35,051 bases of DNA from an uncultured Oscillospiraceae bacterium. GTDB taxonomy: Bacteria > Bacillota > Clostridia > Oscillospirales > Oscillospiraceae. Under the pieces are notes generated by a model, which saw only the letters and a program-made list of their open reading frames with translations, searched no databases and was not told where the DNA came from. Both the position numbers and the translations under genes were made by a program. The stretch covers positions 1-35,051 of the forward strand of contig CALWWB010000012.1 in the NCBI GenBank assembly GCA_944385175.1, given 5' to 3'. Positions 18,573-34,023 of the stretch are shown here, piece by piece (within the stretch, counting starts at the first letter, position 1; each line of letters starts with the position of its first letter).

Positions 18573-19103
18573 TTATTTTTTGACGACTTTCTTTTTCTTG
18601 GGACGGAACATGTTGATGCGGATGAAATGGGACTTGTCTCTCTGGAAGGACTCCTCATAAATCCGCAGGTAGCCGGTCTCCTTGATCAGCCACTTGCCGT
18701 CCACCTTCTCATACTTGTCGGTGTAGAGAGCGCTGCCCTGGATCTGGAGACCCTCATAGGGATTGCCCTGGGCGAAGATCAGGTTGTCCTGCAGGTACCA
18801 GTGGCCGATGGCCTCGGTATCGCTGACAATGATGATCTCGGGGGTATGGCCCTGATGGAGGGTGATCTCAGTCTGGGGCATATTCTCTGCCATATAGTTG
18901 GCCACTTCTTCGGGGCCGTGGAAAGACAGCTTGCCGTCAGAGTAGGAGGTGGTCACATCGGGGTGGAAGGTGGCCTTCAGGCCTTCCCAGTCCTTGGTGT
19001 CCAGGGCGGCGAAGTAGCGGCTCTTCAGGGCCTTGATCTCTTCGATGTCCTTGAGTCTCTGGATTTCCTTCTCAAGAGCTTCCAGACGTTCTTCAACAGT
19101 CAT
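18573..19103 (-). CDS. baiE: Bile acid 7-alpha-dehydratase
   Basis: Removes water from 7-alpha-hydroxy-3-oxo-delta4-cholenoyl-CoA, the rate-limiting step of 7-alpha-dehydroxylation, in the cytoplasm. The 176-residue SnoaL/NTF2-like protein matches remembered C. scindens BaiE along its whole length: LEALEKEIQRLKDIEEIK, TSYSDGKL, HTPEI, ALYTDKYEKVDGKW and ETGYLRIYEE have clear counterparts. The residues shown important in BaiE are all there at the same positions: Tyr30, Asp35, His83, and Arg147 (Arg146 in C. scindens, one residue shorter before it). The basic tail RPKKKKVVKK is longer than usual. GGAAGGAAG lies about 9 nt before the ATG. It follows baiCD by 37 nt in a two-gene unit, whereas in C. 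scindens it sits inside the long bai operon. Confidence 0.95.
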   Translation of the reverse strand: MTVEERLEALEKEIQRLKDIEEIKALKSRYFAALDTKDWEGLKATFHPDVTTSYSDGKLSFHGPEEVANYMAENMPQTEITLHQGHTPEIIIVSDTEAIGHWYLQDNLIFAQGNPYEGLQIQGSALYTDKYEKVDGKWLIKETGYLRIYEESFQRDKSHFIRINMFRPKKKKVVKK

Positions 19104-19140
19104 GATAAAAACTTCCTTCCTAAAAGTTTACAGTCCGATC

Positions 19141-21063
19141 TTAGATGCGGTATGCAACTGCGTAAGCGTCAGCGGTAGCATCCAGACCCATGCGGACCTG
19201 CTTGGCATCGCCGATGACGTCATAAGCAATACCCAGCTCCTGGCACTTGGCGGTCAGGTCGGCAGTGGGACGGGAAACGGTACCGGTAGCAACCACCAGG
19301 GTGTCGAAGTGACGGCTCTTGTCGGAGGTCTTCTTGAACTTATCGGTGAACTTGTAGTTGATGGTGTGGTCCTCGATGCTGGTGACCTTGGACTTGTTGC
19401 TCTTCTTAATGGCATCTCCGGGATACTCGATATCCAGGAACATGGTGCGCAGCATACCCATGTTGTTGCCAACACGCTTGGCATCCATCACGCGGACATC
19501 CTTGACGCCCTTGCTCACCAGATACTGGGCAACCTCACAACCCACGGTGCCGCCGCCCAGGATGACCACTTCGCCCTTGGGCTCCACCTTGCCGGTGAGC
19601 ACGTCCTCTGCAGTGACAACATCAGCGCTGTCAATGCCGGGGATTTCGGGGGCCACATAGTGGGCACCGGTAGCGATGACCACATGGTCGGGCTTGACCT
19701 CAGCAATCAGCTCGGGAGTCACGGTGACGCCGGTCTTGATCTCGATACCGCGGCGCTGGCACTCCTTCACTTCCCATTCCACAGCAGCGGCGAACTCCTG
19801 CTTCTTGGGGGCGGCGCCGGCCAGAACGAACTGACCGCCGGCCTTCTCGGAGGCTTCGTAGATGGTGGGGTTGTGGCCGCGGGCCTTCAGGAACTGAGCA
19901 GTCAGCAGGCCGCCGATGCCGGCGCCGATGACCATCACGTTCTTGGGGCTGTCGGTCTTGGGCAGGCCCTGATGCTCCAGGCAGAGCATAGGGTTGCGGG
20001 TGCAGGTGATGTGGTTGGCCTTGGGGTCAATGACCTTGTCATAGCAGCCCTGGGTGCAGCCGATGCAGAGACGGATCTCATCGGTGCGGCCTTCCTTGGC
20101 CTTGTTGCACCACTCGGGATCGACCAGCTGGCCACGGCCAACGGCGATCATATCGATCTTGCCTTCCTCAATGAGCTTGTTGGCCACATCGGGAGTGTTG
20201 ACACGGCCCACGCCGATGACGGGGATGCTGATGCCGGCCTTGACGGCGGCGATGTTATCCATATTGAAGCCCGGCTCCAGATTGTAGGGGGGGACTTCGT
20301 AAACGGTGGCAAGGCTCATGGCATTGCCGCGGGAGAGGTCAGCAGCGTCTACACCGGCCTCGGCAGCCCAGTTGATGAACTGGATGGTCTCTTCAACGGT
20401 GGTGACCTTGGGCATCAGCTCGTCGATGGCGTCCAGGCGCATCAGCAGAGGCATATCCTCGGGCATATTGGCGCGCATCTCCCGGATGACCTCCAGGTTG
20501 AAGCGGCAGCGGTTCTCCAGACTCTGATTTCCGTATTCATCGGTACGTTTATTGAGGAAGGGGTTCATGAACTCGTGGGGCAGATAGGTATGGGCGGCAT
20601 GGAACTCCAGGGCGTCAAAACCGGCCTCCACAGCCAGCTTTGCGGAAGCACCGTACTGCTTGATGATCTCCTGGATACGCTCATGGGTGATGGTATCGGG
20701 AGTCTCTCTCTTGTTGGTCTTGTCGAAGAAAGCTTCGGGAACAAAGCCGCCGTGCCAGATCTGGACGCAGGCCAGACCGCCGTTGTCATGGATGGCCTTG
20801 GTGACCTTCTTCAGCTCTTCGCTGTGGTGCTCAGTGTACAGGCCCAGGTACAGGTAAGCGTGGGTCTCGGGGCAGACGCAGGCAGGCTCAACGATGTTCA
20901 GGGCGCAGCCGCCGGCAGCACGGGCGGCATGGTAAGCGGCCAGGTCTTCCGCGATGTCGTGCTTATTCTTGACCATCTTGGTGTTCATGCCGGGCAGAAC
21001 AACGCGGTTCTTGAGTTCAAGTCCTCTGAGCTTAATGGGGGAAAACAATGCATCGTAACTCAT
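19141..21063 (-). CDS. baiCD: NAD(H)-dependent 3-oxo-delta4-cholenoic acid oxidoreductase
   Basis: Old-yellow-enzyme/2,4-dienoyl-CoA reductase type flavoenzyme that introduces, and later reduces, the delta-4 double bond of 7-alpha-hydroxy bile acid intermediates. It has 640 residues from ATG 21063, a start chosen because MSYDALFSPIKLRGLELKNR is the BaiCD N-terminus and GGAAAGAG precedes it. The TIM-barrel FMN domain spans about 1-365 with FHAAHTYLPHEF (His155, His158). A 4Fe-4S site C-x2-C-x3-C-x13-C is at C333, C336, C340, C354. The FAD domain begins VMVIGAGIGG near 377, and a second dinucleotide loop LGGGTVGCEV lies near 520. Similarity to remembered C. scindens BaiCD is high throughout. 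It is the first gene after the divergent control region and is preceded by a leader of about 290 nt. Confidence 0.95.
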   Translation of the reverse strand: MSYDALFSPIKLRGLELKNRVVLPGMNTKMVKNKHDIAEDLAAYHAARAAGGCALNIVEPACVCPETHAYLYLGLYTEHHSEELKKVTKAIHDNGGLACVQIWHGGFVPEAFFDKTNKRETPDTITHERIQEIIKQYGASAKLAVEAGFDALEFHAAHTYLPHEFMNPFLNKRTDEYGNQSLENRCRFNLEVIREMRANMPEDMPLLMRLDAIDELMPKVTTVEETIQFINWAAEAGVDAADLSRGNAMSLATVYEVPPYNLEPGFNMDNIAAVKAGISIPVIGVGRVNTPDVANKLIEEGKIDMIAVGRGQLVDPEWCNKAKEGRTDEIRLCIGCTQGCYDKVIDPKANHITCTRNPMLCLEHQGLPKTDSPKNVMVIGAGIGGLLTAQFLKARGHNPTIYEASEKAGGQFVLAGAAPKKQEFAAAVEWEVKECQRRGIEIKTGVTVTPELIAEVKPDHVVIATGAHYVAPEIPGIDSADVVTAEDVLTGKVEPKGEVVILGGGTVGCEVAQYLVSKGVKDVRVMDAKRVGNNMGMLRTMFLDIEYPGDAIKKSNKSKVTSIEDHTINYKFTDKFKKTSDKSRHFDTLVVATGTVSRPTADLTAKCQELGIAYDVIGDAKQVRMGLDATADAYAVAYRI

Positions 21064-21120
21064 AGTAATACACTCTTTCCTTTTTTTAATTTTTCTTTGC
21101 AATGGGGCAATAGGAAATTT

Positions 21121-21209
21121 GACAGTGGCCCTTTGGGAGAGGGCCGAAACGGGCCAGGGAACAGCCCGCCCGGCAGCTACTGGTGGCTTGAAGCCGCCTT
21201 ATCACTGTC
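21121..21209 (-). ncRNA. Candidate structured leader RNA of baiCD
   Basis: On the minus strand a perfect 7-bp helix (GACAGTG at 21209-21203 with CACTGTC at 21127-21121) encloses three hairpins: 21198-21182 (GGCGGC/GCCACC, one wobble), 21168-21150 (CGGGC/GCCCG) and 21145-21127 (GGCCCT/AGGGCC, whose outer base competes with the closing helix). It lies within the predicted baiCD 5' leader, 58 nt before the ATG. It does not match a tRNA or a riboswitch class I can name. GC-rich DNA folds readily, so this is a candidate only. Confidence 0.35.
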
Positions 21210-21360
21210 TCAGCAGAAAACTTATTGTAGAAATTTTAACACTAGTGGCCGCTGCTTGTAGGCAATATTTTCTCTTTCTCATACCCAAGCCAGGAACAAA
21301 AAATCATATTTTATTATCATTTTTTCTTATCCAAAACCGTCATTTATCTACGCTTTTTAA

Positions 21361-21389
21361 ATAATATAACCCTAAAGGTACACTTCCAA
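21361..21389 (-). promoter_or_regulatory. Candidate promoter of baiCD-baiE
   Basis: Minus strand: TTGGAA (21389-21384), a 17-bp spacer, TATTAT (21366-21361). It implies a long leader of about 290 nt. The weak -35 fits an activator-dependent promoter. This 675-bp gap between baiCD and baiH holds no gene. Confidence 0.45.
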
Positions 21390-21417
21390 ATTGCCTATAT
21401 TTGTGTCACTGTCACAA

Positions 21418-21444: not shown

Positions 21445-21497
21445 GCTTTAAAGCCGTTGATATGTGTGGAAGCGCTGCTGTTAGCGCCGCAGATATC

Positions 21498-21544: not shown

Positions 21545-21587
21545 AGAAAGTCTCGGATGAATGTGGATTGTTTAACAAAAAATGAGA

Positions 21588-21738: not shown

Positions 21739-23733
21739 ATGATAACGGATATGAAAAATGCAAAACTCTTCAGCCCCCTCCAGTTGGGAAAAACCACCCT
21801 TAAAAACCGCATAGCAATGGCTCCCATGAGCATGCACTATGAGGCTACTGACGGCACCGTACCCAAACAGCTGGCGGACATATTTGTGCGCCGTGCCGAG
21901 GGCGGTGTGGGTTATGTGGTCATCGATGCCGTAACCGTCGACCACAAGTATTGGTACATCGGCAAAACCACCGCTTTGGATAAGGACAAGCTGGTACCTC
22001 AGTTTGCCGCTTTTGCAAAGCGCATTACCGATGCCGGCAGCACCCTTTTCCCCCAGATAGTACATCCCGGCCCTGAGTCTATCTGTGCCCTTAAGGGCAT
22101 CAAGCCTATGGGACCCTCCGTCAACACAAATGCCAACGGCCATGTCTCCAGAGAAATGACCATTGAAGAAATACAGAAAGTAATCAAGCAGTACGGGCAG
22201 GCTGCCCGCAGAGCTGAGGAAGCCGGCTGCGGCGGCATCGCGCTGCATGCCGCCCACGCCTACATGCTCCCCGGTGCTTTCCTGTCCCCTCTTCGCAACA
22301 AGCGCATGGACGAATACGGCGGCTGTATAGACAACCGGGCCAGACTTATTCTGGAGATTATTGAGGAATGCCGCAGAAATGTCAGCCGCGACTTCCCCAT
22401 AGTGCTGCGTATCTCCGGCGACGAGCGCCAGGCCGGCGGCAATTCTCTGGAAGAGATGCTGTACCTGGCTCCCAAGTTTGAGGCAGCAGGCGTGGATATG
22501 CTGGAGGTATCCGGCGGCGTTCAGTATGAGGGACTTCAGAACATCCTTCCCTCCCACAGCATGAAGATAGGCATGAACGTCTATGAAGCTTCCGAGATAA
22601 AGAAAGTTGTCAACATCCCCGTATTTGTGGTCGGCAAAATCAACGACATCCGTTATGCTGCCGATCTGGTGGAACGTGGCCTGGTAGATGGAGTAACTCT
22701 GGGCCGTCCCCTGCTGGCAGATCCCGATCTGCCCAAGAAGGCTCTGGAAAACCGCTTTGACGACATCACTCCCTGTGGCTCCTGCGGCGGCCGCTGCATT
22801 ACTCCCGAAAATCCCCAGCATCCCGTATGTAAGTGCCACATCAATCCCCTGGTGGGCCGGGAATATGACTTCCCCTTCAACCCCACTGACAAGCCCAAAA
22901 AACTGCTGGTCATCGGCGCAGGCCCCGGCGGAATGTACACTGCAGTCACCGCAGCCGAGCGGGGACATGATGTCACCGTATGGGAAAAGAGCAATCATAT
23001 CGGAGGCCAGCTGAATCTGGCAGTTGTTTCTCCCGGTAAGCAGGAGATGACCAAGTGGATGGTGCATCTCAACTACCGCGCCAAGAAGGCCGGCGTTAAG
23101 TTTGAGTTCAAGAAGGAAGCCACCGTGGAACTGGTAAAGGAATTTGCTCCCGATGCCGTGGTGGTCGCTACCGGCGCAACTCCCCTTATCCCCACCTTTA
23201 TCAAGGGCGTAGGTGACTATCCCATCATTACTACCCACGATATTCTCAGCCGCAGGATCACCATTCCTCAGGGCCGCGTCTGCATTCTGGGCGGCGGTGA
23301 GGTGGCTTGCGAGACCGCCGAGATGATTATGAAGGACGCAAGACCCAACTCCGTCTACTCCACCGGCGGCAGCATTGGCGACGTAGAGGTGAGCCTTGTG
23401 GAGATGATGCCCCAGATGATGACCGGCGTCTGCCAGCCTAACCGCAGCGTCGCCATGGCCAGCCTCCGTCACGAGGGTGTCCAGATGCATGTCAACTCCA
23501 AGGTTCTGGAGGTCACCGAGCACGACGTTAAGATTCAGCACAAAGACGGCAGTGAGGAGTGGCTCAAGGGCTTTGACTACATCGTCCTGGGCCTGGGTTC
23601 CAGAAAGTATGACCCGCTCTCTGAGGAACTGAAGGCTTTTGTTCCTGAGGTATATGTCATCGGAGATGCCGTCAAGCCCGGCCAGTCCAGTGATGCAATG
23701 CATCAGGGCTTCGAGGTTGCCTATAATCTCTGA
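21739..23733 (+). CDS. baiH: Bile acid flavin oxidoreductase BaiH
   Basis: Paralogue of BaiCD that in reconstituted pathways acts as a reductase of the dehydrated intermediate (the second reductive step; first described as acting on 7-beta epimers). It has 664 residues from ATG 21739, after GGAGG. The N-terminus MKNAKLFSPLQLGKTTLKNR and long stretches such as PQIVHPGPES, SPLRNKRMDEYGG, LRISGDER, APKFEAAGVDMLEVSGG and YRAKKAGVKFEF match remembered C. scindens BaiH closely. A 4Fe-4S site C346-x2-C349-x3-C353-x12-C366, an FAD loop VIGAGPGGMY near 391 and a second loop ILGGGEVACETAE are present. It heads the plus-strand unit, 675 bp from baiCD in opposite orientation; in C. scindens the two are in one operon. 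Confidence 0.95.
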   Translation: MITDMKNAKLFSPLQLGKTTLKNRIAMAPMSMHYEATDGTVPKQLADIFVRRAEGGVGYVVIDAVTVDHKYWYIGKTTALDKDKLVPQFAAFAKRITDAGSTLFPQIVHPGPESICALKGIKPMGPSVNTNANGHVSREMTIEEIQKVIKQYGQAARRAEEAGCGGIALHAAHAYMLPGAFLSPLRNKRMDEYGGCIDNRARLILEIIEECRRNVSRDFPIVLRISGDERQAGGNSLEEMLYLAPKFEAAGVDMLEVSGGVQYEGLQNILPSHSMKIGMNVYEASEIKKVVNIPVFVVGKINDIRYAADLVERGLVDGVTLGRPLLADPDLPKKALENRFDDITPCGSCGGRCITPENPQHPVCKCHINPLVGREYDFPFNPTDKPKKLLVIGAGPGGMYTAVTAAERGHDVTVWEKSNHIGGQLNLAVVSPGKQEMTKWMVHLNYRAKKAGVKFEFKKEATVELVKEFAPDAVVVATGATPLIPTFIKGVGDYPIITTHDILSRRITIPQGRVCILGGGEVACETAEMIMKDARPNSVYSTGGSIGDVEVSLVEMMPQMMTGVCQPNRSVAMASLRHEGVQMHVNSKVLEVTEHDVKIQHKDGSEEWLKGFDYIVLGLGSRKYDPLSEELKAFVPEVYVIGDAVKPGQSSDAMHQGFEVAYNL

Positions 23734-23886: not shown

Positions 23887-24648
23887 ATGTACGAAGAATT
23901 GAAAGGCAAGGTCGCTGTCATAAGCGGCGGAAGCAGGGGTATAGGTTTTGCCGCTGTGAAGAAATTCCTGGCAGAAGGTGTCAAAGTGTGTTTCCTCAGC
24001 CACTATGAGGAGACCGGGGAAAAAGCCATGGCCGCCCTGAAGGAGATAAACCCGGATTACGAGGTCATGCGCAGGGTTATCGACCTGTGCGACTACAAGG
24101 CCGTGCAGCAGCTTTTCAGCGACGTAGAGGCCAAGTGGGGGCGCATAGATATACTCATCAACAATGCCGGTAAGGACAGCAGTACGCCACTCAACCAGCT
24201 GAAGCAGGCAGAGTGGAACGAGATTATGGATCTCAACACAAAGAGCATCTACACCATGAGCAAGTACGCAATCAAATACCTTAAGAAGCACAAGGGCTGC
24301 ATTATCAATACTGCATCGGTAGCCGGTGTCTACGGCTCTGCCGCAGGTCTGCCCTACCCCACCAGCAAGGCAGCTGTTATAGGCATGACCCAGTCTCTGG
24401 CATGGACCTTCGCCCCTCTTGGTGTGCGTGTGAACGCTGTTGCCCCTGGAGTCATCAATACCGATCTCGTGGCAAATCTCCCTGATTTTGCCGCAAAAAC
24501 CATCACCGGCACCATTCCCCTTTCCCGTTTCGGTGAGCCTGAAGATATCGCAAACGTAATGTTATTCCTGGCCTCCGATTCCGCAGCATATATAACCGGC
24601 GACACCATACATGCTGACGGAGGATACAGGCCCGCAAACACTTTCTGA
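23887..24648 (+). CDS. baiA: Short-chain dehydrogenase, BaiA-type (first copy)
   Basis: 253-residue classical SDR. TGxxxGxG appears as SGGSRGIG at 13-20, NNAG at 92-95, and the catalytic set is Ser144, Tyr157, Lys161 (YPTSK). APGVINTDL and DGGYRPANTF close it. BaiA enzymes oxidise the 3-alpha-hydroxyl of bile acyl-CoA and reduce it at the end of the pathway. Placement in the bai cluster and overall likeness support a bile acid 3-alpha-hydroxysteroid dehydrogenase, though SDRs are hard to assign by eye; a BaiL-like or other hydroxysteroid role is possible. At the end of strand 2 it has FLSHYEETG, where BaiA has an acidic residue favouring NAD, so cofactor choice may differ. More than half of its positions equal the second copy 5 kb downstream. 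A strong GAAGGAAGG precedes the ATG. Confidence 0.8.
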   Translation: MYEELKGKVAVISGGSRGIGFAAVKKFLAEGVKVCFLSHYEETGEKAMAALKEINPDYEVMRRVIDLCDYKAVQQLFSDVEAKWGRIDILINNAGKDSSTPLNQLKQAEWNEIMDLNTKSIYTMSKYAIKYLKKHKGCIINTASVAGVYGSAAGLPYPTSKAAVIGMTQSLAWTFAPLGVRVNAVAPGVINTDLVANLPDFAAKTITGTIPLSRFGEPEDIANVMLFLASDSAAYITGDTIHADGGYRPANTF

Positions 24649-24664
24649 GACAGGAGGAAAGACA

Positions 24665-26485
24665 ATGTCCAGATTTAACGCAGGCACATATCAGGGGCAG
24701 GGCAAGGGTTATCGCGGCAAGCTGACCGTTGAAGTCTGCCTCGGTCCGGAGCGCATTGAGTCCGTCAAAGTGACGGAGCACAACGAGGTGCGTGGCATAG
24801 GCTGGGGCTTGAACACCTCTCCGGTGGAAACCATGCCCGGATTAATTGTCGAATACCAGTCTCTGAACATTCCGGAGGTAGTAGGCGCCGAGCTCACAAG
24901 TCAGGCCATTTTGGAGGCGGTTGCCGCCGCCATTAAGGCTTCCGGGGCAGACAAAGAGCTTATCTCTCAGCTGAAAACTGCCCCCGGTCCAATACAGGAA
25001 GCCCCGGAGGATGAAGAATACACTGTGGATCTGCTCATATGCGGAGCCGGAGCCGGCGGTCTTGCCGCCGCAGTGGAGGCAAAGCTGGCGGGAGCCAATG
25101 TGCTCGTGGTAGAAAAAGCAGGAATTACCGGCGGCTCCACCGCCCGCAGCGGCGGCAAGGTCCTTGGCGCCGGAACACGCTGGCAGAAAAGGCAAGGCAT
25201 ATATGACAGTCCAGAAATGGTATATGACTACCTCATGGAGGTGGGCTGCCGTCGGGGAGATTTCATGTCCCCGGTAAAGACCCGCTATGTCTCAGAACAT
25301 TTGAACAGCACCCTTGACTGGCTCAGCTCCGTGAAATACAGCATAAAAGGCAATCCAGAGGATATACTGAGCCAGCCCTGGCCGGAGCTATCCAGGCCGG
25401 AGCAAAATGAGGACGGCAGTCTGAAAAAATGCAGCTATCAGGTCCAGGACGTAGAGCCCATCCACGTTTCCCTCCAACCCTGGCGAGTCCACAATTCCCC
25501 CGGAGGCGGCGGCCAGACCAACGGAGAGGGTGGAGAGATCTCCGTTCCCCTGACTTTGTACTATGAAAACGACCTGGGCGGAAAAATCCTGTACAACACC
25601 GCTCTGGAGGAACTTATAACCGACGAAAAAGGCGCGGTCACCGGAGCTCTTTGCCGCCGCAAAAATGGTAGCCTTGTCACTATTCATGCTGAAAAAGGCG
25701 TCATACTGGCTACCGGCGGATACTCCCGTAATAAGGAGATGTGTTCCCGTTACCCCACGGCCCACTATTACAGCACTGTACCGCACGGTAACGTAGGCGA
25801 CGGACTTGTGGCTGCCGAAAAGATAGGCGCCAGGAACTTTGTGCACCCCGCTGTCCAGGTAGTATACACAAGCCTCACCTGCGGTATAGGTATCAATGAC
25901 GAGTCCGGCCTGATTGTAAACGAAAAGGGCGACCGTGTTGTGAACGAGTGGACTTACCAATACACTGTGGGCGATGCTTTGGCCGCCAGCGGCAGCAACT
26001 GCGGCTGGTACATCACCTCCGGCAAAGAGCCCTACCCCGGTGTCAAGTTGGGCTATAAGATGGCAGTAAACAAAAAGAGCCGGGATCCGGTATCCGACAG
26101 CATTGAGGGGCTGGCAAAGAAAATGGGCTGTGAGCCTGAGCGTCTGCGCAGGACCTACGATCGTTACTGTGAACTGGTTGATAAGGGAATAGATGAGGAC
26201 TTCGGCAAACCCGCTGAGTTCCTGCACCCCATAGAAGGGCCCAAATTTGTAGCCCTCCGGCTCCACCCCTGTATTACAGTTACCTTTGGCGGGCTAGAGA
26301 TAGACGTTGATTCCCGGGTGCTTCGTCCTGACGGTTCTTTTATCCCAGGCCTGTACGCCGCCGGGGAAGTTGCCAACACGGGCTTTTTCGGCACTGAGTA
26401 TCCAACCTGCGGCACCTCTATAGGCGGAGCATTGATGTTCGGCAGAGTGGCCGCCAGGACGGCGCTGGGCTTGTCCAAGCTCTGA
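24665..26485 (+). CDS. FMN-binding/FAD-dependent flavoprotein reductase (BaiJ/BaiP-like)
   Basis: 606 residues in two parts. Residues 5-93 form an FMN_bind domain (GTYQGQGKGYRGKLTVEV...), and 119-606 a fumarate/urocanate/3-ketosteroid-reductase type FAD_binding_2 domain (CGAGAGGLAAAVEA at 126-139, ILATGGYSRNKEM, GLYAAGEVANTGFFG, YPTCGTSIGGALMFGR). In the bai setting it recalls BaiJ/BaiP, flavoproteins reported to saturate 3-oxo-delta4 intermediates to the 5-alpha (allo) series, or a delta-1 dehydrogenase. Substrate is inferred. In most FMN_bind domains an SGA-T motif takes covalent FMN from ApbE; here it reads VGAELTS (73-79), with Glu76 in place of the acceptor Thr, so FMN may not be attached. 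AGGAGG lies 8 nt before ATG 24665. It is 16 nt after the SDR gene and ends at a strong terminator. Confidence 0.82.
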   Translation: MSRFNAGTYQGQGKGYRGKLTVEVCLGPERIESVKVTEHNEVRGIGWGLNTSPVETMPGLIVEYQSLNIPEVVGAELTSQAILEAVAAAIKASGADKELISQLKTAPGPIQEAPEDEEYTVDLLICGAGAGGLAAAVEAKLAGANVLVVEKAGITGGSTARSGGKVLGAGTRWQKRQGIYDSPEMVYDYLMEVGCRRGDFMSPVKTRYVSEHLNSTLDWLSSVKYSIKGNPEDILSQPWPELSRPEQNEDGSLKKCSYQVQDVEPIHVSLQPWRVHNSPGGGGQTNGEGGEISVPLTLYYENDLGGKILYNTALEELITDEKGAVTGALCRRKNGSLVTIHAEKGVILATGGYSRNKEMCSRYPTAHYYSTVPHGNVGDGLVAAEKIGARNFVHPAVQVVYTSLTCGIGINDESGLIVNEKGDRVVNEWTYQYTVGDALAASGSNCGWYITSGKEPYPGVKLGYKMAVNKKSRDPVSDSIEGLAKKMGCEPERLRRTYDRYCELVDKGIDEDFGKPAEFLHPIEGPKFVALRLHPCITVTFGGLEIDVDSRVLRPDGSFIPGLYAAGEVANTGFFGTEYPTCGTSIGGALMFGRVAARTALGLSKL

Positions 26486-26735: not shown

Positions 26736-27980
26736 TTGAAAAAGAAATGCAGGCCGCTGTGTGAGACCCCAAGAAGCAACATTTTCTGTGGGCCTGACAA
26801 ATATCTTCAGCTTCAGGAATATACAATTTCTCAGGAAATGTTTCCCGTAATGGAGATAGACAGCTACTTTATACTGGTCAGGGCCGGTAAGGGAATTTTC
26901 ATCATCAATGGGGAAGAATTCCCCGTTGAGCCTAGGTGTATCGCCTGGATACAGGGCTCCCAGGTGCTCACCATATGCCCGAATTTTGGAGAACAGCTGC
27001 ACATATGGGTATGCGCCTTTGATTATCAGCTGATCAGCTATTTTACTTTCAGGAAGCTGAGCCTGAGCAAGGAGTCGGAAGTCGTAACCGGTCTCCCCGT
27101 AATCGGTCCCGGCGGCGAGGGGGTCGATCAGATTATCCGACTCTTCTACCAATACAAAAAATTATGCGAAAAAAATACCAGAGGCTCTACAATCATCAGG
27201 AGTTCTTTCCTCCGGAAAATTGAGCTGCTGTATAATAGGGTAACCCAGAGCATGAAAGATCAATACAGATTTGAGAACATGCCGCTGGGCCGCCAAGTCA
27301 GCCTCTACATGGCTACTCACAGTACAATGGATCTGAGCGCAGCCCAGGTCGCCAAGGCCATAAGCCCCAAAGTAAACGAAGCCTCCCTGAACCATGCCCT
27401 TTTGGTGGCAACTGGACTGAACTTTAACCAATATCTTAACAGGCTCCGGCTTATTCTGGCCACCTCCTTTTTCCTCTATGACAGTCTGCCCTTCGGCTAT
27501 ATAGCGTCCATCTCAGGATTTAATATGGAAATCACTTTCTTTCGCCGCTTCAAAGCTCTTACGGGGATGACTCCCCAGGCCTACCGCGAGCAGATGCTCT
27601 GTTCAGGTACACGTAAGCGCCCATACAGAGGTATGATAATGAGTGAAACGCTTATTTCCGTAATAAGCTTTCTCTATGAGAATATGACCGAGTATATTGA
27701 TATGGACACAATATCCAAGGAATTGTATACATCCGGCAACATACTTCGTATACAGTTCAAGTCCAGGCTGAATACCAGCTTTAAGCAGATCCTTTCACAG
27801 TTTCGCGTCAGATATGCAGAGGCCCTGCTCAGCACAACCGACCTGCCTACGGTGGATATAGCCATAGAGTCTGGCTTTGGTTCAGGCCGTACAATGGGCC
27901 GTGTATTTTATGATATTAATGGTGTGTCGCCCGGTGAATTCAGGAAGAAGCGCGGCGATACCGGAGGCAGCAATGAATAA
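26736..27980 (+). CDS. AraC-family regulator with two DNA-binding domains
   Basis: 414 residues from TTG 26736, with GAGAGGTG 6 nt upstream and no in-frame ATG nearby. Residues about 25-100 are a cupin sensor (YFILVRAGKGIFIINGEEF). Residues 184-288 are an AraC helix-turn-helix pair ending IASISGFNMEITFFRRFKAL..MTPQAYREQ. Residues 305-407 are a second one ending IAIESGFGSGRTMGRVFYDI..VSPGEFRKK. A normal AraC protein has only one such 100-residue domain, so this is a tandem duplication or fusion that could bridge two operator pairs. By position it is the bai regulator, counterpart of the AraC-type bar genes near C. scindens bai; the inducer is probably a primary bile acid or its CoA form (inference). 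The stop overlaps the next gene by 8 nt. Confidence 0.87.
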   Translation: MKKKCRPLCETPRSNIFCGPDKYLQLQEYTISQEMFPVMEIDSYFILVRAGKGIFIINGEEFPVEPRCIAWIQGSQVLTICPNFGEQLHIWVCAFDYQLISYFTFRKLSLSKESEVVTGLPVIGPGGEGVDQIIRLFYQYKKLCEKNTRGSTIIRSSFLRKIELLYNRVTQSMKDQYRFENMPLGRQVSLYMATHSTMDLSAAQVAKAISPKVNEASLNHALLVATGLNFNQYLNRLRLILATSFFLYDSLPFGYIASISGFNMEITFFRRFKALTGMTPQAYREQMLCSGTRKRPYRGMIMSETLISVISFLYENMTEYIDMDTISKELYTSGNILRIQFKSRLNTSFKQILSQFRVRYAEALLSTTDLPTVDIAIESGFGSGRTMGRVFYDINGVSPGEFRKKRGDTGGSNE

Positions 27981-28569
27981 CAAATACACTTTTGAAACTG
28001 ATGGAAAAAACCGCACCACCATCACCTCAAACTTTTCCGGAGCACACGACTACTTTTCAAAGACTGTGCTCCCCGATGAAATACGTACCGTCCTTCGCCG
28101 AATAAAAGCTCCCACCCCATATGCCAACAACAGGGAGCAGGTTTTTATGCTGGTACGCTCCGGTACTGGTAAAATAGTCGTAAACGGCATAGAATACCCT
28201 CTCAAGCCAAACACCCTTATAAATCTGGGGCCCTTTCACCGCTACCGCTTCATTCCCGATATAGGTAAAATAATGGAAATCGTGGACAGCCGCATGAACA
28301 GTGGTACCTACGTTTACATGATCGCCAATCCTTATCTTAAAATAGAGCAGTTCTACGTCACTTCAGAGCCACCTATCGTATATCTCAACGGGCTCTTGGC
28401 CGATATTGCCAATGATTCTATGAACGGTTTGCTGAGGGAAATGAACAGCAATTGGGACAACCGTACCAGCATCTGCTTTTGCTACATGATGGATCTTTTT
28501 GGCGTACTTACCGAAAAGCTTCCCCGGTCATATTTTCAACACAGCTCAGCTCCGGAAAAGAAAATGTAG
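27973..28569 (+). CDS. Cupin sensor protein without DNA-binding domain
   Basis: 198 residues from ATG 27973, inside the last codons of the AraC gene, with GGAGGCAG just upstream. EQVFMLVRSGTGKIVVNGIEYPLKPNTLINLGPFHRYRFIP (about 56-96) aligns with the cupin part of the regulator before it (YFILVRAGKGIFIINGEEFPVEP). The remaining 100 residues are helical, like the linker/dimer region of AraC proteins. No helix-turn-helix follows; translation stops at TAG and the next 300 bp carry no homologous frame. It could form a heterodimer with the full regulator, acting as a co-sensor or brake. A truncated AraC gene is the other reading, but the tight translational coupling argues for a working product. 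Other unrelated small cupins cannot be excluded. Confidence 0.75.
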   Translation: MNNKYTFETDGKNRTTITSNFSGAHDYFSKTVLPDEIRTVLRRIKAPTPYANNREQVFMLVRSGTGKIVVNGIEYPLKPNTLINLGPFHRYRFIPDIGKIMEIVDSRMNSGTYVYMIANPYLKIEQFYVTSEPPIVYLNGLLADIANDSMNGLLREMNSNWDNRTSICFCYMMDLFGVLTEKLPRSYFQHSSAPEKKM

Positions 28570-28918: not shown

Positions 28919-29686
28919 ATGTTTGAAAATGAGTTTAAAGGCAAGGTAGTTCTGGTTACCGGCGGCAGCCGTGGTATTGGTTTTGGAATCGTAAAGTCTT
29001 TTCTTGCAGCCGGTGCAAAGGTGTACTTCCTCAGCCACTATGTTGAGACCGGTGCAAAGGCTCTGGCTGCCCTTAAGGAAATCAACCCCGATTACGAAGT
29101 CATGACCAAGGCAATTGACCTTTGCGACTACAAGGCCGCTCAGGAGCTCTACGCCGAGATTGAGGAGAAATGGGGCCGCTTGGACGTTCTTGTCAATAAC
29201 GCCGGCGCTGACAGCAGCACTCCTATTCAGAAGCTCAAGCAGTCTGAGTGGGACGACATCATGAACGTCAACGTCAAGGCTATCTTTAATATGTCCAAGT
29301 ATGCCATCAAGCTGCTGAAAAAGACCAAAGGCTGCATTATCAACACCGCCTCCGTCGCCGGTATCTTCGGGTCCGGTGTCGGCTGCCCCTACCCCACTTC
29401 CAAGGGCGGCGTCATCTCCATGACTAAGTCCCTTGCCTGGGAGCTGGCTTACCACGGCATTCGCGTCAACGCTGTCGCCCCCGGTGTGATTGAGACTGAC
29501 CTGCTCGCTACCGTTCCCGAGTTTGCAAAGAAGAACCTGATGAGCGGTATTCCTCTCCGCCGCATCGGTAAGCCCGAGGATATTGCCAACGGTGTTCTCT
29601 TCCTTGCCAGCAGCGCAGCTTCCTATGTCACCGGCGTCACCTTGAATGTGGACGGCGGATACGTTCCTGCAAACGTAGCCAACTAA
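28919..29686 (+). CDS. baiA: Short-chain dehydrogenase, BaiA-type (second copy)
   Basis: 255-residue classical SDR: TGGSRGIG at 14-21, NNAG at 93-96, Ser145, Tyr158, Lys162, DGGYVPANVAN at the end. It is closely related to the copy at 23887 (FLSHY-ETG, LKEINPDYEVM, DLCDYKA, KGCIINTASVAG identical or nearly so), so the two arose by duplication. It heads the baiA-baiB-transporter-baiF unit, so it is the better candidate for the 3-alpha-hydroxysteroid dehydrogenase that acts on bile acyl-CoA after BaiB. ATG 28919 is the start, about 10 nt after AAGGAAAGG; an ATG at 28911 is out of frame and stops after four codons. The NAD/NADP preference is unclear because the strand-2 acidic residue of BaiA is replaced by Ser-His. 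Confidence 0.82.
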   Translation: MFENEFKGKVVLVTGGSRGIGFGIVKSFLAAGAKVYFLSHYVETGAKALAALKEINPDYEVMTKAIDLCDYKAAQELYAEIEEKWGRLDVLVNNAGADSSTPIQKLKQSEWDDIMNVNVKAIFNMSKYAIKLLKKTKGCIINTASVAGIFGSGVGCPYPTSKGGVISMTKSLAWELAYHGIRVNAVAPGVIETDLLATVPEFAKKNLMSGIPLRRIGKPEDIANGVLFLASSAASYVTGVTLNVDGGYVPANVAN

Positions 29687-29721: not shown

Positions 29722-29749
29722 TAAAACTCATGCAGAAAGTGTGGATATT

Positions 29750-31270
29750 ATGAGCGTTAAGCATTTTAACATCTTCAACACTGACGACGGCAAGAGTGAG
29801 TTTTCCCCCGGCAGGCAGCTTGCCCGCATAGCCGCCGTAAAACCCAACGCCCCAGCCATTATTTACATTTCCCCGGAAAATCGCGAAACCGTCATGACTT
29901 GGCGTGAGCTGGAAGTGCTGTCCAATAAGATTGCCTGGTATCTGAAAGATCAGGGCGTTGGTAGCGGCAAAAGTGTTATAGTTGCTCTGGGCAACACACC
30001 TACCCATATTGCTCTGGCTTTCGGTATTTGGAAAGTCGGCGGATGCTATGTGCCCATTTCCAGTAAGGTGCCGCAGAAAAACATGGCTGAGATATGCGAA
30101 TGTATCTCCCCTATCCTTGTGGTCACCAACCGCAGAAAGCCTGCGGGCTATACCAGCCTCAGCACCTCGGAACTCAAGGAGCTCAGCTCCGGCTATTCCG
30201 ACGAGATGCCCCCTGACACCGATGCCGTGCCCAACATGGCCAACTGCTCCGGCGGCACCACCGGCAAAACAAAGGTTATCCAGCAGAATGTCCCTGCCGG
30301 CCAGAGTGACGAGGGCCTTCAGGCTTGGTTTTATATGTCCGGTATGAACTTTGAAATGCGGCAGCTTCTGGCGGGACCTCTTTTCCACGGGGCCCCTCAC
30401 TCCGCCGCTTTTAACGGGCTGTACTGTGGAAACACCCTTATCATGCCTGCGGTGTTTGATGCCCAGCTGATGGTAGATCTTATCAAGAAATACCAGGTCG
30501 AATATGTGCAGATGGTCCCGACCCTGATGCAGCGTATCGTAAAGTTGCCTGGATTTAAAAAAGAGGATATGAAGAGCATCAAGGCTCTCTGTCATACCGG
30601 CGGCATATGCTCCAAGGATCTCAAATATCAGTGGCTGGATATCATTCCGCCGGATTCGCTGTATGAAATGTACTCCATGACAGAGTGCATAGGCATGACC
30701 AATATACGGGGCGACGAGTGGCTGAAGCATCCCGGCAGTGTAGGAAAAATGCTCGACGGGAAAATATCCATTCGAGATGAGGAAGGCAATGAGCTCCCTG
30801 CCGGTGAAATCGGCGGGATCTATATGTACTGGCCCACCAGCCCTGATGTTGAGTATGTGAATGTGGATCCCATCCCCAAGGATGCCTCGGGCTTCCGTAC
30901 GGTTGGCGATATGGGCTATGTCGATGAAGAGGGTTATCTGTACTTTGCAGACAGGCGCAGCGACATGATAGTCACCGGTGGTGAAAACGTTTTCGCCGCC
31001 GAGGTAGAGGCCGTACTTAAAAAGCATAAGAAGGTCACCGACGCAGTAGTTGTCGGCCTTCCCGACAGTGAATGGGGTCACAGAATCCACGCCATTGTGG
31101 AGGCCAATGAACCTGTCACCGCCAAGGAACTCATTAAGTTCTCCCTGAACTTCCTCCCTCCCTATAAAATACCTAAATCTTTTGAGTTCTTGGATTCTAT
31201 CCCACGTAATGAAAGTGGAAAAGTAGTTAGAAGCCTGCTTATTCAGGAAAGTCTGAAGAAGGGCTTTTAA
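29750..31270 (+). CDS. baiB: Bile acid-CoA ligase
   Basis: ATP-dependent ligase that activates cholic and chenodeoxycholic acid to CoA thioesters, first step of the pathway. It is a 506-residue ANL-family enzyme from ATG 29750 (GTG 29741 would add three residues). The P-loop is SGGTTGK at 167-173. LFHGAPHSAAFNGL, YEMYSMTECIG and YVDEEGYLYFADRRSDMIVTGGENVFAAEVE follow, and the A10 lysine is Lys491 (ESGKVVRS). FFN-type N-terminus, LLxGPLFHGAPHSAAFNGL and IRGDEWLKHPGS agree closely with remembered C. scindens BaiB. The ribosome site (AGAAAG) is weak, so translation may depend on the upstream gene. It is followed by the transporter after 25 nt. Confidence 0.95.
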   Translation: MSVKHFNIFNTDDGKSEFSPGRQLARIAAVKPNAPAIIYISPENRETVMTWRELEVLSNKIAWYLKDQGVGSGKSVIVALGNTPTHIALAFGIWKVGGCYVPISSKVPQKNMAEICECISPILVVTNRRKPAGYTSLSTSELKELSSGYSDEMPPDTDAVPNMANCSGGTTGKTKVIQQNVPAGQSDEGLQAWFYMSGMNFEMRQLLAGPLFHGAPHSAAFNGLYCGNTLIMPAVFDAQLMVDLIKKYQVEYVQMVPTLMQRIVKLPGFKKEDMKSIKALCHTGGICSKDLKYQWLDIIPPDSLYEMYSMTECIGMTNIRGDEWLKHPGSVGKMLDGKISIRDEEGNELPAGEIGGIYMYWPTSPDVEYVNVDPIPKDASGFRTVGDMGYVDEEGYLYFADRRSDMIVTGGENVFAAEVEAVLKKHKKVTDAVVVGLPDSEWGHRIHAIVEANEPVTAKELIKFSLNFLPPYKIPKSFEFLDSIPRNESGKVVRSLLIQESLKKGF

Positions 31271-31295
31271 AAAAAATTTAAAGGAGATAAGAGTT

Positions 31296-32591
31296 ATGGA
31301 AAAGAAACAATTCAAAGGCTGGGGAGTTCTTGCAGCTGCCTTCATTTTGTCTTTCATACCCACGGCAATAATGAGCAACTGCTTCTCCCTGTACATGGCC
31401 CCCGTATGCTCTGACCTGGGCTTCAGCAATACCAGCTGGTCTATGGTAAACCTCATATCCTCTTTTGCCAGTGCAATCGGCGCCATGGTCATTGCAGGCC
31501 TGTATCAGAAGAAGAATATGAAACTCATGATGGTAATCGTCACCGTGGGTACCGGACTGTGCTGGTTTATCGCCACTTTCTGCACCGCAATCTGGCAGTT
31601 TTATATTCTCTTCGGCCTCTCCAACGTATTCATGGCCGGTCTGACTCAGCTGCCCATCTCCATGCTGATCACTGCATGGTTTGAGGACAAGCGGGCCACC
31701 ATGATGTCCATCGCCTATGCCGGCGGCGGCCTGGGCGGCGCCGTATGGTCCCCCGTGATCTCCGGTTTCATTGCCGCTGACGCAACCGGCTGGAAGACTG
31801 CCATGATCTTCTCCGCCGTTGTTGTCACTGTCGTGATGGTGCTCACCGCTCTGTTCCTTGTCAAGCGCTCCCCTGCCGAGTACGGCACCGAGCCTTATCG
31901 TACCGGCAAGAAGGATGAGAAGGCCGAGGCTGCTGCCGCTGCAAAGAGCAATGCTTGGATAGGCGTGTCCAAGAAGACCGCAACCAAATCCGGAGCCTGG
32001 GGCTTCATGATCGGCGTTGTTATCTTCACCGGTATCCTGGCCGCAGGCGTCACCACTCACGTCCCCAACTTCATTACCTCTATTGCCCAGGACGGCGGCA
32101 AGCTCCAGGGCACCATCCTCTCCGCTTACTCCATCGTCTCCCTGGTGGGTATGATCTGCGGCGGAGCTCTCATGGATAAGATTGGCATCAAGAAGACCGT
32201 TCTCGGCGCTGTAGTGCTGGTCATCATCGGCCTCGGCAGCCTCTATGCCTATTCCATTACCGCCACTGTTTACTTCGCCTTTGGCTACTCCGTGTTCTTT
32301 GCTTTCGCCATGTTCCTGCCTAAAGTGCTGCCCGCAGTCATCATGTCCAAGGTTTTCGGAACCAAGGAATACGCAGGTATATACGCCTTTGCAAATCTCT
32401 TCTTCCTCATTGGCGCAGCTCTGGGTTCCGTACTTACCTCCATCATCCAGGGTATAGTTGGCTATGGCCTCACCTGGGTTGTCTACATGGTCTTCGCAGT
32501 TCTCCTCTTCGTCTGTGTCGCCGGTGCACTTAAGGGCGGCGAGAAGCTCCAGGAGAAGTACCCCGAGGGCGATGAAGTCACAGTTGCCTGA
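31296..32591 (+). CDS. MFS transporter in the baiG position
   Basis: 431-residue transporter, with about 12 hydrophobic segments in two halves joined by a charged loop near 190-225 (KRSPAEYG..GKKDEKAEAAAAAKSN). It starts MEKKQFKGWGVLAAAFILSF, a form typical of the oxalate/formate and monocarboxylate-type MFS branch, with YAGGGLGGAVWSPVISGFI in the first half. By place between baiB and baiF it should carry bile acids, as BaiG does in C. scindens. As remembered, BaiG is about 477 residues and of a different MFS subfamily; no colinear similarity was seen, so this looks like non-orthologous replacement. AAGGAG lies 9 nt upstream of ATG 31296. Direction (uptake or efflux) is not known. Confidence 0.85.
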   Translation: MEKKQFKGWGVLAAAFILSFIPTAIMSNCFSLYMAPVCSDLGFSNTSWSMVNLISSFASAIGAMVIAGLYQKKNMKLMMVIVTVGTGLCWFIATFCTAIWQFYILFGLSNVFMAGLTQLPISMLITAWFEDKRATMMSIAYAGGGLGGAVWSPVISGFIAADATGWKTAMIFSAVVVTVVMVLTALFLVKRSPAEYGTEPYRTGKKDEKAEAAAAAKSNAWIGVSKKTATKSGAWGFMIGVVIFTGILAAGVTTHVPNFITSIAQDGGKLQGTILSAYSIVSLVGMICGGALMDKIGIKKTVLGAVVLVIIGLGSLYAYSITATVYFAFGYSVFFAFAMFLPKVLPAVIMSKVFGTKEYAGIYAFANLFFLIGAALGSVLTSIIQGIVGYGLTWVVYMVFAVLLFVCVAGALKGGEKLQEKYPEGDEVTVA

Positions 32592-32667
32592 GCGGACTTT
32601 CTGAATTGATGAGGGGGGCGGCAATGCCTTATTCCCCCGAAAAAAACTATATGGAAGGAATACTTAC

Positions 32668-34023
32668 ATGAAAGTTATCAACAACAAGCTGACCCACAAA
32701 TTTACCGAGTATCCCGATTTCGGCGTTCTCAAGGGTGTAAAGGTCTTTATCACCGGTACAAACATTGCCGGCCCCTTTGCCGGATGCCTTATGGCCGAAA
32801 TGGGCGCAAAGGTTCTTCAGGCCGAGGCCCCCAATATCGCCTGCCAGACCAGAGGCACTCTGGCCTGGGCTCAGAACCACCGCAATGAGTTCTCCATCAC
32901 CCTTAACACCGCCACTCCCAGGGGAAAGAAAATCTTCCTCAAGTGCATTGAATGGGCCGACATTTGGATAGAGGCAGGCCGTCCCGGCTCCTATGAGAAG
33001 CGCGGTCTCTCCGATGAGGTGTGCTGGAAGCACAACAAGGCGCTCACCATCGTCCATGTCTCCGGCTACGGCCAGTTTGGCCCTGCCAAGAACAAGGCCT
33101 CTTATGATGTCTCCGGACAGGCAATGGGCGGCTACATGTATCTCAACGGCGTCTCCCCAACCTCCGGTCCTCTGAAGGTCAACCCCTATCTGTCTGACTT
33201 TGTCACCGCTTACAATGTCTGCATGGTTTCTCTGGCCGGTTATATCAATGCCCAGCACACCGGTGAGGGTGACTCCTGCGACGTGGCCCAGTACGACACC
33301 ATGTTCCGTCTCCTGGACAACTACCCCGCCAACTGGTTCAACAAGGGCTATCCCAAGCAGGGCGATCCCGTACCCTACCGCACCGGCAACAAGAGCGACC
33401 AGGCCGCCTGCTTCTCCTTCTATGACACCAAGGAGGGCAATGCCATGTTCGTGGCTATCGTCGGCCAGGGCCCTGTGGAGCGCGGCTATCCCATCATCGG
33501 CATGCCCAAGCCCGGTACCGGAGATGTGCCTCTCAAGTGCACCGGCTTCCCCCTCTTTGACCCCAGAGGCAAGAGAGCCGAGGAGCTCTGCACCAAGTTC
33601 TGCGCCGAGCACACCTGCGACGAACTGGAAGAGATCTTCACCAAGGCCGGTATCCCCTGCCAGCGCTGCTACGGTCCTGCCGACATCGAGAAAGATCCTC
33701 AGTACGCCGCCCGCGAGAATATCGTTGAGTGGGAAGACCAGTGCTTTGGCCCCATGAAGGGTATCGGCGTTACCAACATCTTCAAGAAGAATCCTTCTCA
33801 GATCTATGCTGCCGCCCCCTGCTTCGGCGAACACAACAGAGAGGTCCTCACCGAGTTCGGTTACAGCGAGGAAGAGATTGAGGATATGTACAAGAAGGGC
33901 GAGATGGCCACCTGGACTCCCAAAGACACCGCTATCAACAAGAACTATGTTGAGTGGCGCTTCTTCTGGGATCCCGAGCGTCAGGCCAAGCGCATCGGTA
34001 TGGACTATCCCCCCAAGAGATAA
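32668..34023 (+). CDS. baiF: Bile acyl-CoA:bile acid CoA transferase
   Basis: Class III (CaiB/BaiF) CoA transferase that moves CoA from late intermediates to new primary bile acid, sparing ATP. At 451 residues it is a little longer than C. scindens BaiF. Shared features with the remembered protein are TNIAGPFAGCLMAEMGAKV, QNHRNEFSI, ADIWIEAGRPGSYEKRGLSDE, IVHVSGYGQ, NPYLSDF (Asp177 in the catalytic Asp position), DVAQYD, PRTGNK-type YRTGNKSDQAACFSF, PIIGMPKPGTGD and IPCQRCYGPADIEKDPQ. The start ATG 32668 follows GGAAGGAA. It is the last gene of the unit, with a perfect hairpin 18 nt after the TAA. Confidence 0.95.
   Translation: MKVINNKLTHKFTEYPDFGVLKGVKVFITGTNIAGPFAGCLMAEMGAKVLQAEAPNIACQTRGTLAWAQNHRNEFSITLNTATPRGKKIFLKCIEWADIWIEAGRPGSYEKRGLSDEVCWKHNKALTIVHVSGYGQFGPAKNKASYDVSGQAMGGYMYLNGVSPTSGPLKVNPYLSDFVTAYNVCMVSLAGYINAQHTGEGDSCDVAQYDTMFRLLDNYPANWFNKGYPKQGDPVPYRTGNKSDQAACFSFYDTKEGNAMFVAIVGQGPVERGYPIIGMPKPGTGDVPLKCTGFPLFDPRGKRAEELCTKFCAEHTCDELEEIFTKAGIPCQRCYGPADIEKDPQYAARENIVEWEDQCFGPMKGIGVTNIFKKNPSQIYAAAPCFGEHNREVLTEFGYSEEEIEDMYKKGEMATWTPKDTAINKNYVEWRFFWDPERQAKRIGMDYPPKR

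Follow-up and report, generated by a model that had tools for sequence, protein, structure and literature searches.

A c-25-type bai locus and a linked ATP-grasp cluster in an uncultured Oscillospiraceae-like bacterium

The c-25-type layout and the core bai genes

The secondary bile acids are important both for resistance to colonisation and in diseases of the liver and bowel. Here we describe a locus of bai genes, predicted to encode bile acid 7-alpha-dehydroxylation, in a stretch of 35,051 nucleotides (the window), which is contig 12 of the genome of an uncultured bacterium (G000; 2.23 Mb in 146 contigs, 90.6% complete). Two described systems come closest to it. As far as the excerpts of Song et al. 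2021 (PMC8623032) go, Eubacterium sp. c-25 carries the same multi-cluster layout, with separate promoters presumed from prediction; cholate strongly induced its baiB and baiCD and modestly its baiH, and the culture produces deoxycholic acid (DCA). Similarly, the excerpts of Kim et al. 2022 (PMC9426597) give, for Oscillospiraceae cluster 1 in metagenome-assembled genomes (MAGs), the order baiE and baiCD on the minus strand, then baiH, barA, barB, baiA, baiB, a transporter gene and baiF on the plus strand, and BaiA and BaiB of this cluster were shown to be active. The layout of the window is therefore not new, and the novelty that a first-pass annotation of the same DNA had implied falls away.

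In the window, baiE and baiCD lie on the minus strand, and baiH, baiA1, baiJ, barA, barB, baiA2, baiB, the gene of a major facilitator superfamily (MFS) transporter and baiF lie on the plus strand; the open reading frames were found where the first-pass annotation had put them, and the non-classical order and strands that it described stand. Instead of the single polycistronic baiBCDEAFGHI unit of the classical bai operon, we found genes on two strands and in another order: baiCD-baiE divergent from baiH, the pair barAB, the run baiA2-baiB-MFS-baiF and a transporter of the c-25 type. A BaiE scan of one genome collection gave at least 14 loci among the matches listed, and the window layout was seen in at least nine of these (L015 to L022 and L027), as far as each reaches, many of the compared loci stopping inside baiB, the transporter gene or baiF. 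Twelve loci with baiCD-baiE divergent from baiH were counted as c-25-type: the window, G065 (L015), G012 (L016), G086 (L017), G018, G087 (L018), G008, G088 (L019; RUG332), L020, G090 (L021), G091 (L022) and L027, which is Claveliimonas bilis c-25, under the accession given by Song et al. 2021 for Eubacterium sp. c-25. The classical-order loci compared were those of Extibacter muris (L025), Peptacetobacter sp. (L026) and Dorea sp. D27 (L028), with Candidatus Scatomorpha (L024) as a variant; a Hespellia MAG (G092, locus L023) was also included. In L018 a further short-chain dehydrogenase/reductase (SDR) gene was seen between baiH and baiCD; G087, G018 and G008 (L018, L011, L012) each have an additional SDR gene at this place.

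We consider the window best explained, with a probability of about 0.7, by a horizontally spread, c-25-type bai island in an uncultured Oscillospiraceae-like bacterium, in which a 7-alpha-dehydroxylation pathway, a BaiJ branch, control by BarA and BarB and a cluster of ATP-grasp genes would belong together. We kept the estimate at this level because concatenated trees conflict in places and because a sample of the host's order says little on linkage.

The core set baiB, baiA, baiCD, baiE, baiF and baiH, which the first-pass annotation had called complete, is so by family, PDB and NCBIfam matches, and the products of baiE, baiB and baiA2 match solved bile acid enzymes. The predicted 7-alpha-dehydratase BaiE (18573..19103, minus strand) is 59 to 60% identical to two solved BaiE chains and was found in the PDB search at E 2e-65, the nearest unrelated SnoaL match standing at 7e-5. 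It keeps Tyr30, Asp35, His83 and Arg147, as previously described, together with Asp106, all of which we take to be catalytic residues of BaiE. These residues, the gap in PDB scores to other SnoaL proteins and the grouping with other BaiE proteins, in a tree that has no outgroup, place it in the BaiE family. The predicted 3-oxo-delta4 oxidoreductase BaiCD (19141..21060, minus strand), a flavoenzyme of the Old Yellow Enzyme (OYE) type with Fe-S cysteines, was assigned by NCBIfam score and tree; BaiCD proteins of the c-25-type loci form a starred clade of their own. The trees of BaiE and of BaiCD both unite the window, at starred support, with c-25 and similar loci to the exclusion of the classical-order ones. 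Such grouping had been named as a check on the annotation; the grouping itself was recovered, but these trees hold Bai-type rows only and cannot alone exclude a place outside the family, so that the place within it rests on hidden Markov model and PDB scores.

Among the plus-strand genes, the second OYE-type Fe-S flavoenzyme BaiH (21739..23733) was recognised by family searches and is 69 to 75% identical to the matching protein of the four classical-order loci and 86 to 90% identical to that of the same-genus genomes G065, G012, G018 and G008. The baiA2 product (28919..29686) has the bile acid 3-alpha-hydroxysteroid dehydrogenase 4is2 as its top PDB match and is 69 to 72% identical to baiA2 of nine c-25-type loci. 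The putative bile acid-CoA ligase BaiB (29741..31270) scores 851 bits with its NCBIfam model (cut-off 650), its top PDB match being the bile acid-CoA ligase 4lgc (E 7e-170). The motifs of BaiB, BaiA2, BaiCD (including the Fe-S cysteines) and BaiH are intact. A c-25-type MFS transporter (31296..32591; MFS_1) takes the place of baiG and is followed by a baiF-type family III CoA-transferase (32668..34023; CoA_transf_3), which is 80% identical to BaiF of c-25 versus 43 to 46% to that of the four classical-order loci. The best NCBIfam match of the transporter is a conjugated bile salt MFS transporter (183 bits, under the cut-off of 400). It is 74 to 78% identical to the c-25 transporter, and its gene has copies in c-25, G090 and G091 (74 to 88%, partly short edge matches) and in G087 (76%), while G065, G018 and G088 have a different protein of 471 to 481 amino acids at this place, which suggests module swapping between loci. 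Beyond baiF, a gene at 34143-35027 was considered as the integrase of an island and ruled out; its product scores as XerD (330.3 bits, cut-off 329.6), and none of the other compared loci, of which several extend beyond baiF, gave a match to it.

Following the published pathway, from which we took the enzyme steps, free bile acid would be imported by the MFS transporter and joined to coenzyme A (CoA) by BaiB. BaiA would then oxidise C3 and BaiCD C4-5, BaiE would dehydrate at C7, BaiH, BaiCD and BaiA would carry out the reduction back, and BaiF would recycle CoA. Conversion of cholic acid and chenodeoxycholic acid (CDCA) by the host is plausible on this gene content. It seems very improbable to us that the Bai proteins act instead on another steroid or sterol-like acid, with cholate not the natural substrate. 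The divergence of BaiF would fit such a role, as would the labels of some related records, which seem to stand for samples from rabbit (Lapin) or rumen (RUG), where the bile acid supply differs; however, c-25, whose BaiA2, BaiB, BaiCD, BaiE, BaiF and BaiH are 66 to 80% identical to their counterparts in the window, makes DCA from cholate. In G008 we additionally noted a separate cluster (L014, 4191-11101) with a second BaiE-like protein (34 to 35%), a BaiCD-like protein (33%) and SDR genes, possibly another dehydration pathway.

The linked ATP-grasp cluster and probable transfer between families

On the strand of baiE, 186 bases behind it, lies a cluster of ten genes (7778-18386), whose members are −22 to 24 bases apart, except for a gap of 150 bases before the symporter gene. 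It begins with AG_d (17304..18386), a sugar-transfer-associated ATP-grasp protein, and AG_c (16236..17291), another ATP-grasp protein (both PF14397). These are followed by a sodium:solute symporter (14490..16085; PF00474), a polysaccharide pyruvyl transferase-like protein (13636..14472; PF04230) and two GT2 glycosyltransferases (12752..13636 and 11835..12755; PF00535), the first of which is TuaG-like (NCBIfam TuaG, 124 bits, under the cut-off of 400). A TupA-like ATP-grasp protein (10934..11815; PF14305), an opine (octopine-type) dehydrogenase (9806..10909; PF02317; PDB 1bg6 at E 3e-31) and the ATP-grasp proteins AG_b (8829..9827) and AG_a (7778..8842; both PF14397) complete the cluster. Next to it, at 2429-6717, the window has genes for fumarase halves, a malic enzyme and a membrane protein; G065 has them too, and none of the other stretches compared does.

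The AG_d gene is next in line after baiE in all 12 c-25-type loci compared, with one SDR gene in between in G065, G012 and G086. The eight-gene core (AG_d, AG_c, the pyruvyl transferase-like gene, two GT2 genes, TupA, AG_b and AG_a) is complete in 11 of the 12, the twelfth (L020) being cut by the contig end; among these 11 full clusters, the symporter gene is present in six and the opine dehydrogenase gene in seven. On the G008 contig, baiE, baiCD, baiH and an SDR gene stand with the ATP-grasp cluster and without other bai genes, and in RUG332 one strand carries baiJ-, baiK- and baiL-type genes, about 2.7 kb, the ATP-grasp cluster and baiE-baiCD. In the Hespellia MAG locus, where the bai genes are ordered differently, AG_d and AG_c are the only cluster genes within the part compared (up to 11863).

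We then compared the occurrence of AG_d and BaiE. BaiE was searched in 60 genomes, 37 of the host genus and 23 of other families, and AG_d in 61 genomes of the genus, matches of at least 66% identity being counted as orthologues. BaiE was found in four of the 37 genus genomes (G000, G008, G012 and G018) and in none of the 23 others searched, and AG_d in the same four; the chance of two such sets coinciding is 1 in 66,045, by arithmetic that ignores kinship. Across the 61 genus genomes, AG_d gave eight matches at E<=1e-40. Five reach at least 66%, the fifth being G065, which has BaiE; the other three (G002, G062 and G075), at only 35 to 40%, were not counted, and BaiE was absent from G002, the one of these three in which it was searched. 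In a sample of the host's order, AG_d and BaiE each occur in one of 394 genomes, in both cases G000, and in a sample of the c-25 family AG_d occurs in two of 299 genomes, namely c-25 and one that carries an identical copy, and BaiE occurs in three, including both of these. AG_d orthologues thus turned up only in genomes with baiE.

As judged from family names only, the cluster would most likely build an anionic, amino-acid-decorated envelope glycan, which would make the cell more tolerant of bile acids and of the more toxic products derived from them. A capsule- or teichuronopeptide-type cluster would combine ATP-grasp and GT2 genes with genes for export and polymerisation; the families present here are those of ATP-grasp, GT2, pyruvyl transferase and opine dehydrogenase. 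TupA is linked to teichuronopeptide. A role in modifying bile acids themselves, which would be conjugated to amino acids or sugars and then exported or stored, appears improbable. It would agree with the constant linkage to bai genes and with the AG_d model, whose best fold matches are carboxylate-amine ligases (ArgX, PsnB, RimK), bile acids carrying a carboxylate. However, that model is weak and permits statements on the fold at most (predicted local distance difference test score, pLDDT, 70.6; TM-scores below 0.5), and the presence of glycosyltransferase, pyruvyl transferase and TupA families speaks for envelope polymers.

Alternatively, the cluster could be an unrelated neighbour of the bai genes in one ancestor, merely carried along since. 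The promoter-like site and hairpin that separate it from baiE are in line with this, as are the two genes that come and go between loci and the variability of the cluster proteins, which exceeds that of BaiH and, when closely related genomes are compared in pairs, also that of BaiCD. Nevertheless, the cluster is kept behind baiE in hosts whose RpoB is 68% identical, two of its genes lie downstream of baiE even in the differently ordered Hespellia MAG locus, and in RUG332 it is located between two groups of bai genes. We therefore regard passive carriage as unlikely, though a serious contender, and favour the cluster as part of the transferred island.

The host is placed as Oscillospiraceae-like only through genomes of the same genus, because an RpoB search of G000 gave no match; in the RpoB tree, G087 (labelled Oscillospiraceae) stands beside G018 inside the host-genus group (96/96). 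In the same tree the host genus is fully supported as separate from c-25, G091, G092, Extibacter and Dorea D27. In the BaiCD tree, one starred clade holds the c-25 group, RUG332 and the window's group, with the congeners G008 and G018 outside, and the narrower union of the c-25 group with the window's group has a support of 89/93. Between c-25 and G065, a partial RpoB is 68% and BaiCD 81% identical, versus 90% for RpoB and 66% for BaiCD between the same-genus genomes G065 and G008. The cluster proteins of c-25 resemble those of the genus about as much as the proteins of congeners resemble one another: TupA of c-25 is 64 to 69% identical to that of the genus, compared with 65 to 76% among congeners, and AG_a 62 to 68%, compared with 68 to 76%. 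Concatenated trees of the bai and of the ATP-grasp proteins share the groups c-25+G090+G091, G012+G086 and G008+G018+G087. Together, the identities and trees indicate that the locus has crossed families with its ATP-grasp cluster, which, if true, would explain its scattered distribution (4 of 37 genus genomes). Between the window and G065 (L061/L062), BaiE is 100% and BaiCD 98% identical, and the values on both sides of this pair are 89% for BaiH, 70% for BaiA2, 80% for BaiB, 79% for AG_d and 76% for AG_c, a mosaic pattern that we read as a sign of recombination.

Among the papers listed by searches of the open literature, outside which most subscription journals lie, none linked bai genes and ATP-grasp. 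The text of Song et al. 2021 (PMC8623032) is without the words ATP-grasp, glycosyl, polysaccharide and flanking, and PMC11748489 is without ATP-grasp and glycosyltransferase; PMC12702444 and PMC12562777 combine bai terms with "glycosyltransferase", their titles concerning markers of bile acid diarrhoea and a swine model. What seems new here is a bai set that appears to travel between families with a block of cell-surface-type genes. The BaiJ assignment, the linked cluster, the probable transfer between families, the covarying hairpin after baiE, the model of BarB and the failure to find a bile salt hydrolase (BSH) all go beyond the first-pass annotation.

BaiJ and the control elements

Between baiH and barA, the window carries an extra baiA copy (baiA1, 23887..24648, plus strand; SDR family) and a flavoprotein gene (24659..26485, plus strand) with FMN_bind and FAD_binding_2 domains. 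Among the loci compared, the baiA1 product is nearest to an SDR after baiE in the Hespellia MAG locus (60%); its NxAS motif was found by pattern, and YPTSK can be read in the translation, beyond an earlier YxxSK at which the pattern search had ended. By sequence, the flavoprotein appears to be an orthologue of BaiJ. At E<=1e-50, BaiJ was matched in 10 of 17 distinct genomes searched, including the window's own: identities are 84% in G012 and G086, 71% in G065 and RUG332, 68% in Candidatus Scatomorpha, 62 to 72% in two pieces in Dorea sp. D27 and 47 to 55% in G087, G008 and a Peptacetobacter MAG, and at this threshold Extibacter muris gave no match. The Dorea D27 protein falls in the BaiJ cluster of Lee et al. 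2022, as excerpted (PMC9645264).

In G065, RUG332 and Dorea D27, genes for a BaiF-like CoA-transferase and an SDR (baiK- and baiL-type) adjoin baiJ on the same strand in varying order. No such gene stands beside baiJ in the window, and the best match of G065 BaiK in G000 is the window's BaiF (61%), two other CoA-transferases reaching 38 to 39%. The window is not alone in having baiJ in its main cluster, because Candidatus Scatomorpha has baiJ next to baiH too, in a classical-type cluster (L024, 4475-18695) that also holds two baiCD-like (59% and 48%) and two baiA-like genes.

BaiJ and the neighbouring extra BaiA would add a branch to the pathway, for 5-alpha (allo) reduction, for the first reductive step, or for both. 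According to the excerpts of PMC9645264, BaiJ of C. scindens VPI 12708 yields 3-oxo-allo products, including the 3-oxo-allo form of lithocholic acid (LCA); since a BaiJ orthologue appears to be present here, the host may make allo (5-alpha) bile acids as well, and baiJ in the main cluster predicts such products from this lineage. It is also conceivable, if on balance unlikely, that BaiJ serves here as the first reductive enzyme of 7-dehydroxylation rather than as a 5-alpha-reductase. In the excerpts of PMC10936602, BaiJ of C. scindens ATCC 35704 reduces 3-oxo-delta4,6-LCA, and a five-enzyme set with this BaiJ and without BaiH carries out CDCA 7-dehydroxylation. However, the window's BaiJ is tied indirectly, through Dorea D27, to the sub-cluster of VPI 12708, whose BaiJ, in the same excerpts, did not reduce 3-oxo-delta4,6-LCA and, in those of PMC9645264, made 3-oxo-allo-LCA.

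Behind baiE lies a conserved hairpin (18506..18538, minus strand). In the eight loci aligned, nine of its 18 pairs change on both sides, four change on one side and five are invariant, and 90.3% of the cells pair. None of 500 shuffles, which leave relatedness in, reached the observed values, and at most four pairs showed changes on both sides when the partner was slid. An exact-pattern search found a single copy of the hairpin in 7 of 14 genomes, always after baiE; it was absent from four congeners without BaiE (G001, G015, G023 and G029) and also from the bai carriers G065 and G012, and the variant in RUG332 was missed by the pattern. Rfam gave no match anywhere in the window at gathering thresholds and nothing around the hairpin at E<=1. 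This hairpin may be a terminator, though its tails are poor in T, or a processing site.

Folding additionally gave hairpins after baiJ and barB, and a scan gave a terminator-like hairpin with a 14-pair stem after baiF (34039..34070, plus strand). A putative promoter-like TGTTAAAATAT stands 97 to 111 bases upstream of baiA2 in all 10 loci that cover this stretch, and a related TGTTAAAATTT upstream of baiCD in 6 of 10. These four hairpins, TGTTAAAATAT and TGTTAAAATTT bear out the earlier claim of separately controlled units in part, but the sites of a consensus scan did not exceed chance. Furthermore, a strong hairpin without a T-tract lies between baiH and baiA1, and baiH and baiA1-baiJ may be separate units too. 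A 15-base motif that occurs four times at up to four mismatches between baiCD and baiH was dropped, as it is not kept in relatives.

The barA-like gene (26736..27980, plus strand) encodes an AraC-family regulator (HTH_18) that is 60 to 85% identical to BarA of nine c-25-type loci. BarB (27964..28569, plus strand) had no Pfam match, and no helix-turn-helix was found in it; its AlphaFold model (pLDDT 77) has its best Foldseek matches in the regulatory domains of AraC and RhaR (TM 0.57 to 0.59 by query length), as for an AraC-type sensor and dimer domain. BarA would switch the baiA2 and baiCD promoters, and BarB, as a sensor domain without a DNA-binding part of its own, would tune BarA through dimer formation.

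Weighing of the evidence and comparison with known systems

Several observations weigh against a c-25-type bai island of this composition. On the side of the enzymes, BaiCD scores 806 bits with the NCBIfam model bile_acid_BaiCD (NF041087), short of the cut-off of 825 (next family, 376). BaiF resembles a carnitine CoA-transferase: its top NCBIfam match is L-carnitine CoA-transferase (266 bits, under the cut-off of 413), no Bai model was among the matches listed, and its top PDB match is CaiB. No match to a CBAH-family bile salt hydrolase was found in G000, at 90.6% completeness, or in four same-genus bai carriers. On the side of control, the consensus scans are at chance level, with 16 promoter-like sites versus 13.9 in shuffles and 15 terminator-like sites versus 17.1. 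Because they are separated by a hairpin and a promoter-like site, baiE and the ATP-grasp cluster probably belong to different transcripts. As for the cluster itself, its ten genes gave no match to a flippase or polymerase family, and none of its genes was found in the compared flanks of L024, L025, L026 and L028, so that the pathway there does not need it. The order sample shows rarity more than linkage, and in the c-25 family both AG_d positives are nearly identical copies.

The evidence for joint transfer is likewise uneven. BaiH of c-25 is 72 to 73% identical to that of the host genus, versus 85 to 93% within the genus, and gives no clear sign of transfer; because it lacks the pattern of BaiCD, parts of the bai set may have separate histories. 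Moreover, the concatenated trees conflict on RUG332, which joins the G008 group in one (92/95) and the c-25 group in the other (100/100), and on window+G065, which is found in the ATP-grasp tree (100/100) and is not formed in the bai tree (80/90).

A bolder proposal would be that c-25-type 7-alpha-dehydroxylation is a mobile package of about 26 kb, in which the bai genes travel with a dedicated and hitherto unlinked ATP-grasp/glycosyltransferase/opine cluster; by remodelling the envelope, or the bile acid, this cluster would let the producer survive its own product, with the conserved RNA hairpin at the joint. We advance it tentatively, as an idea somewhat more apt to fail than to hold. If the ATP-grasp cluster were part of such a package, it would offer a genetic approach to the question why so few lineages have bai genes, and a marker for c-25-type producers.

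Compared with known systems, the window has the same core enzymes as the classical-order loci (L025, L026, L028 and the variant L024), which differ in having their main genes on one strand and in another order. The probable BaiJ orthologue of the window has its counterpart among the baiJKL genes, which are in print for C. hylemonae and C. scindens VPI 12708 and were found in Dorea D27, G065 and RUG332; in Dorea D27, baiJ with K and L sits away from the main bai locus, whereas the window has baiJ in its main cluster. Gene order and strands are alike in Oscillospiraceae cluster 1 (UBA11811 / CAG:103), as excerpted, and in the window. However, cluster 1 has a baiG-type transporter, two baiF genes, a BSH gene and genomes of 62% G+C (excerpts of PMC9426597); against this published description, the window stands out by a c-25-type MFS transporter, a single baiF, no BSH gene found in its genome and a G+C content of 53%. 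From c-25 it differs in the extra baiA and baiJ between baiH and barA, BaiJ giving no match at E<=1e-50 in the c-25 genome, and in the symporter and opine dehydrogenase added to its linked cluster; c-25 in turn has a CBAH-family gene, none having been found in the window's genome. Nevertheless, c-25 and the window agree in baiCD-baiE divergent from baiH, in barA-barB and baiA2-baiB-MFS-baiF behind it, in the type of the MFS transporter and in the ATP-grasp cluster behind baiE.

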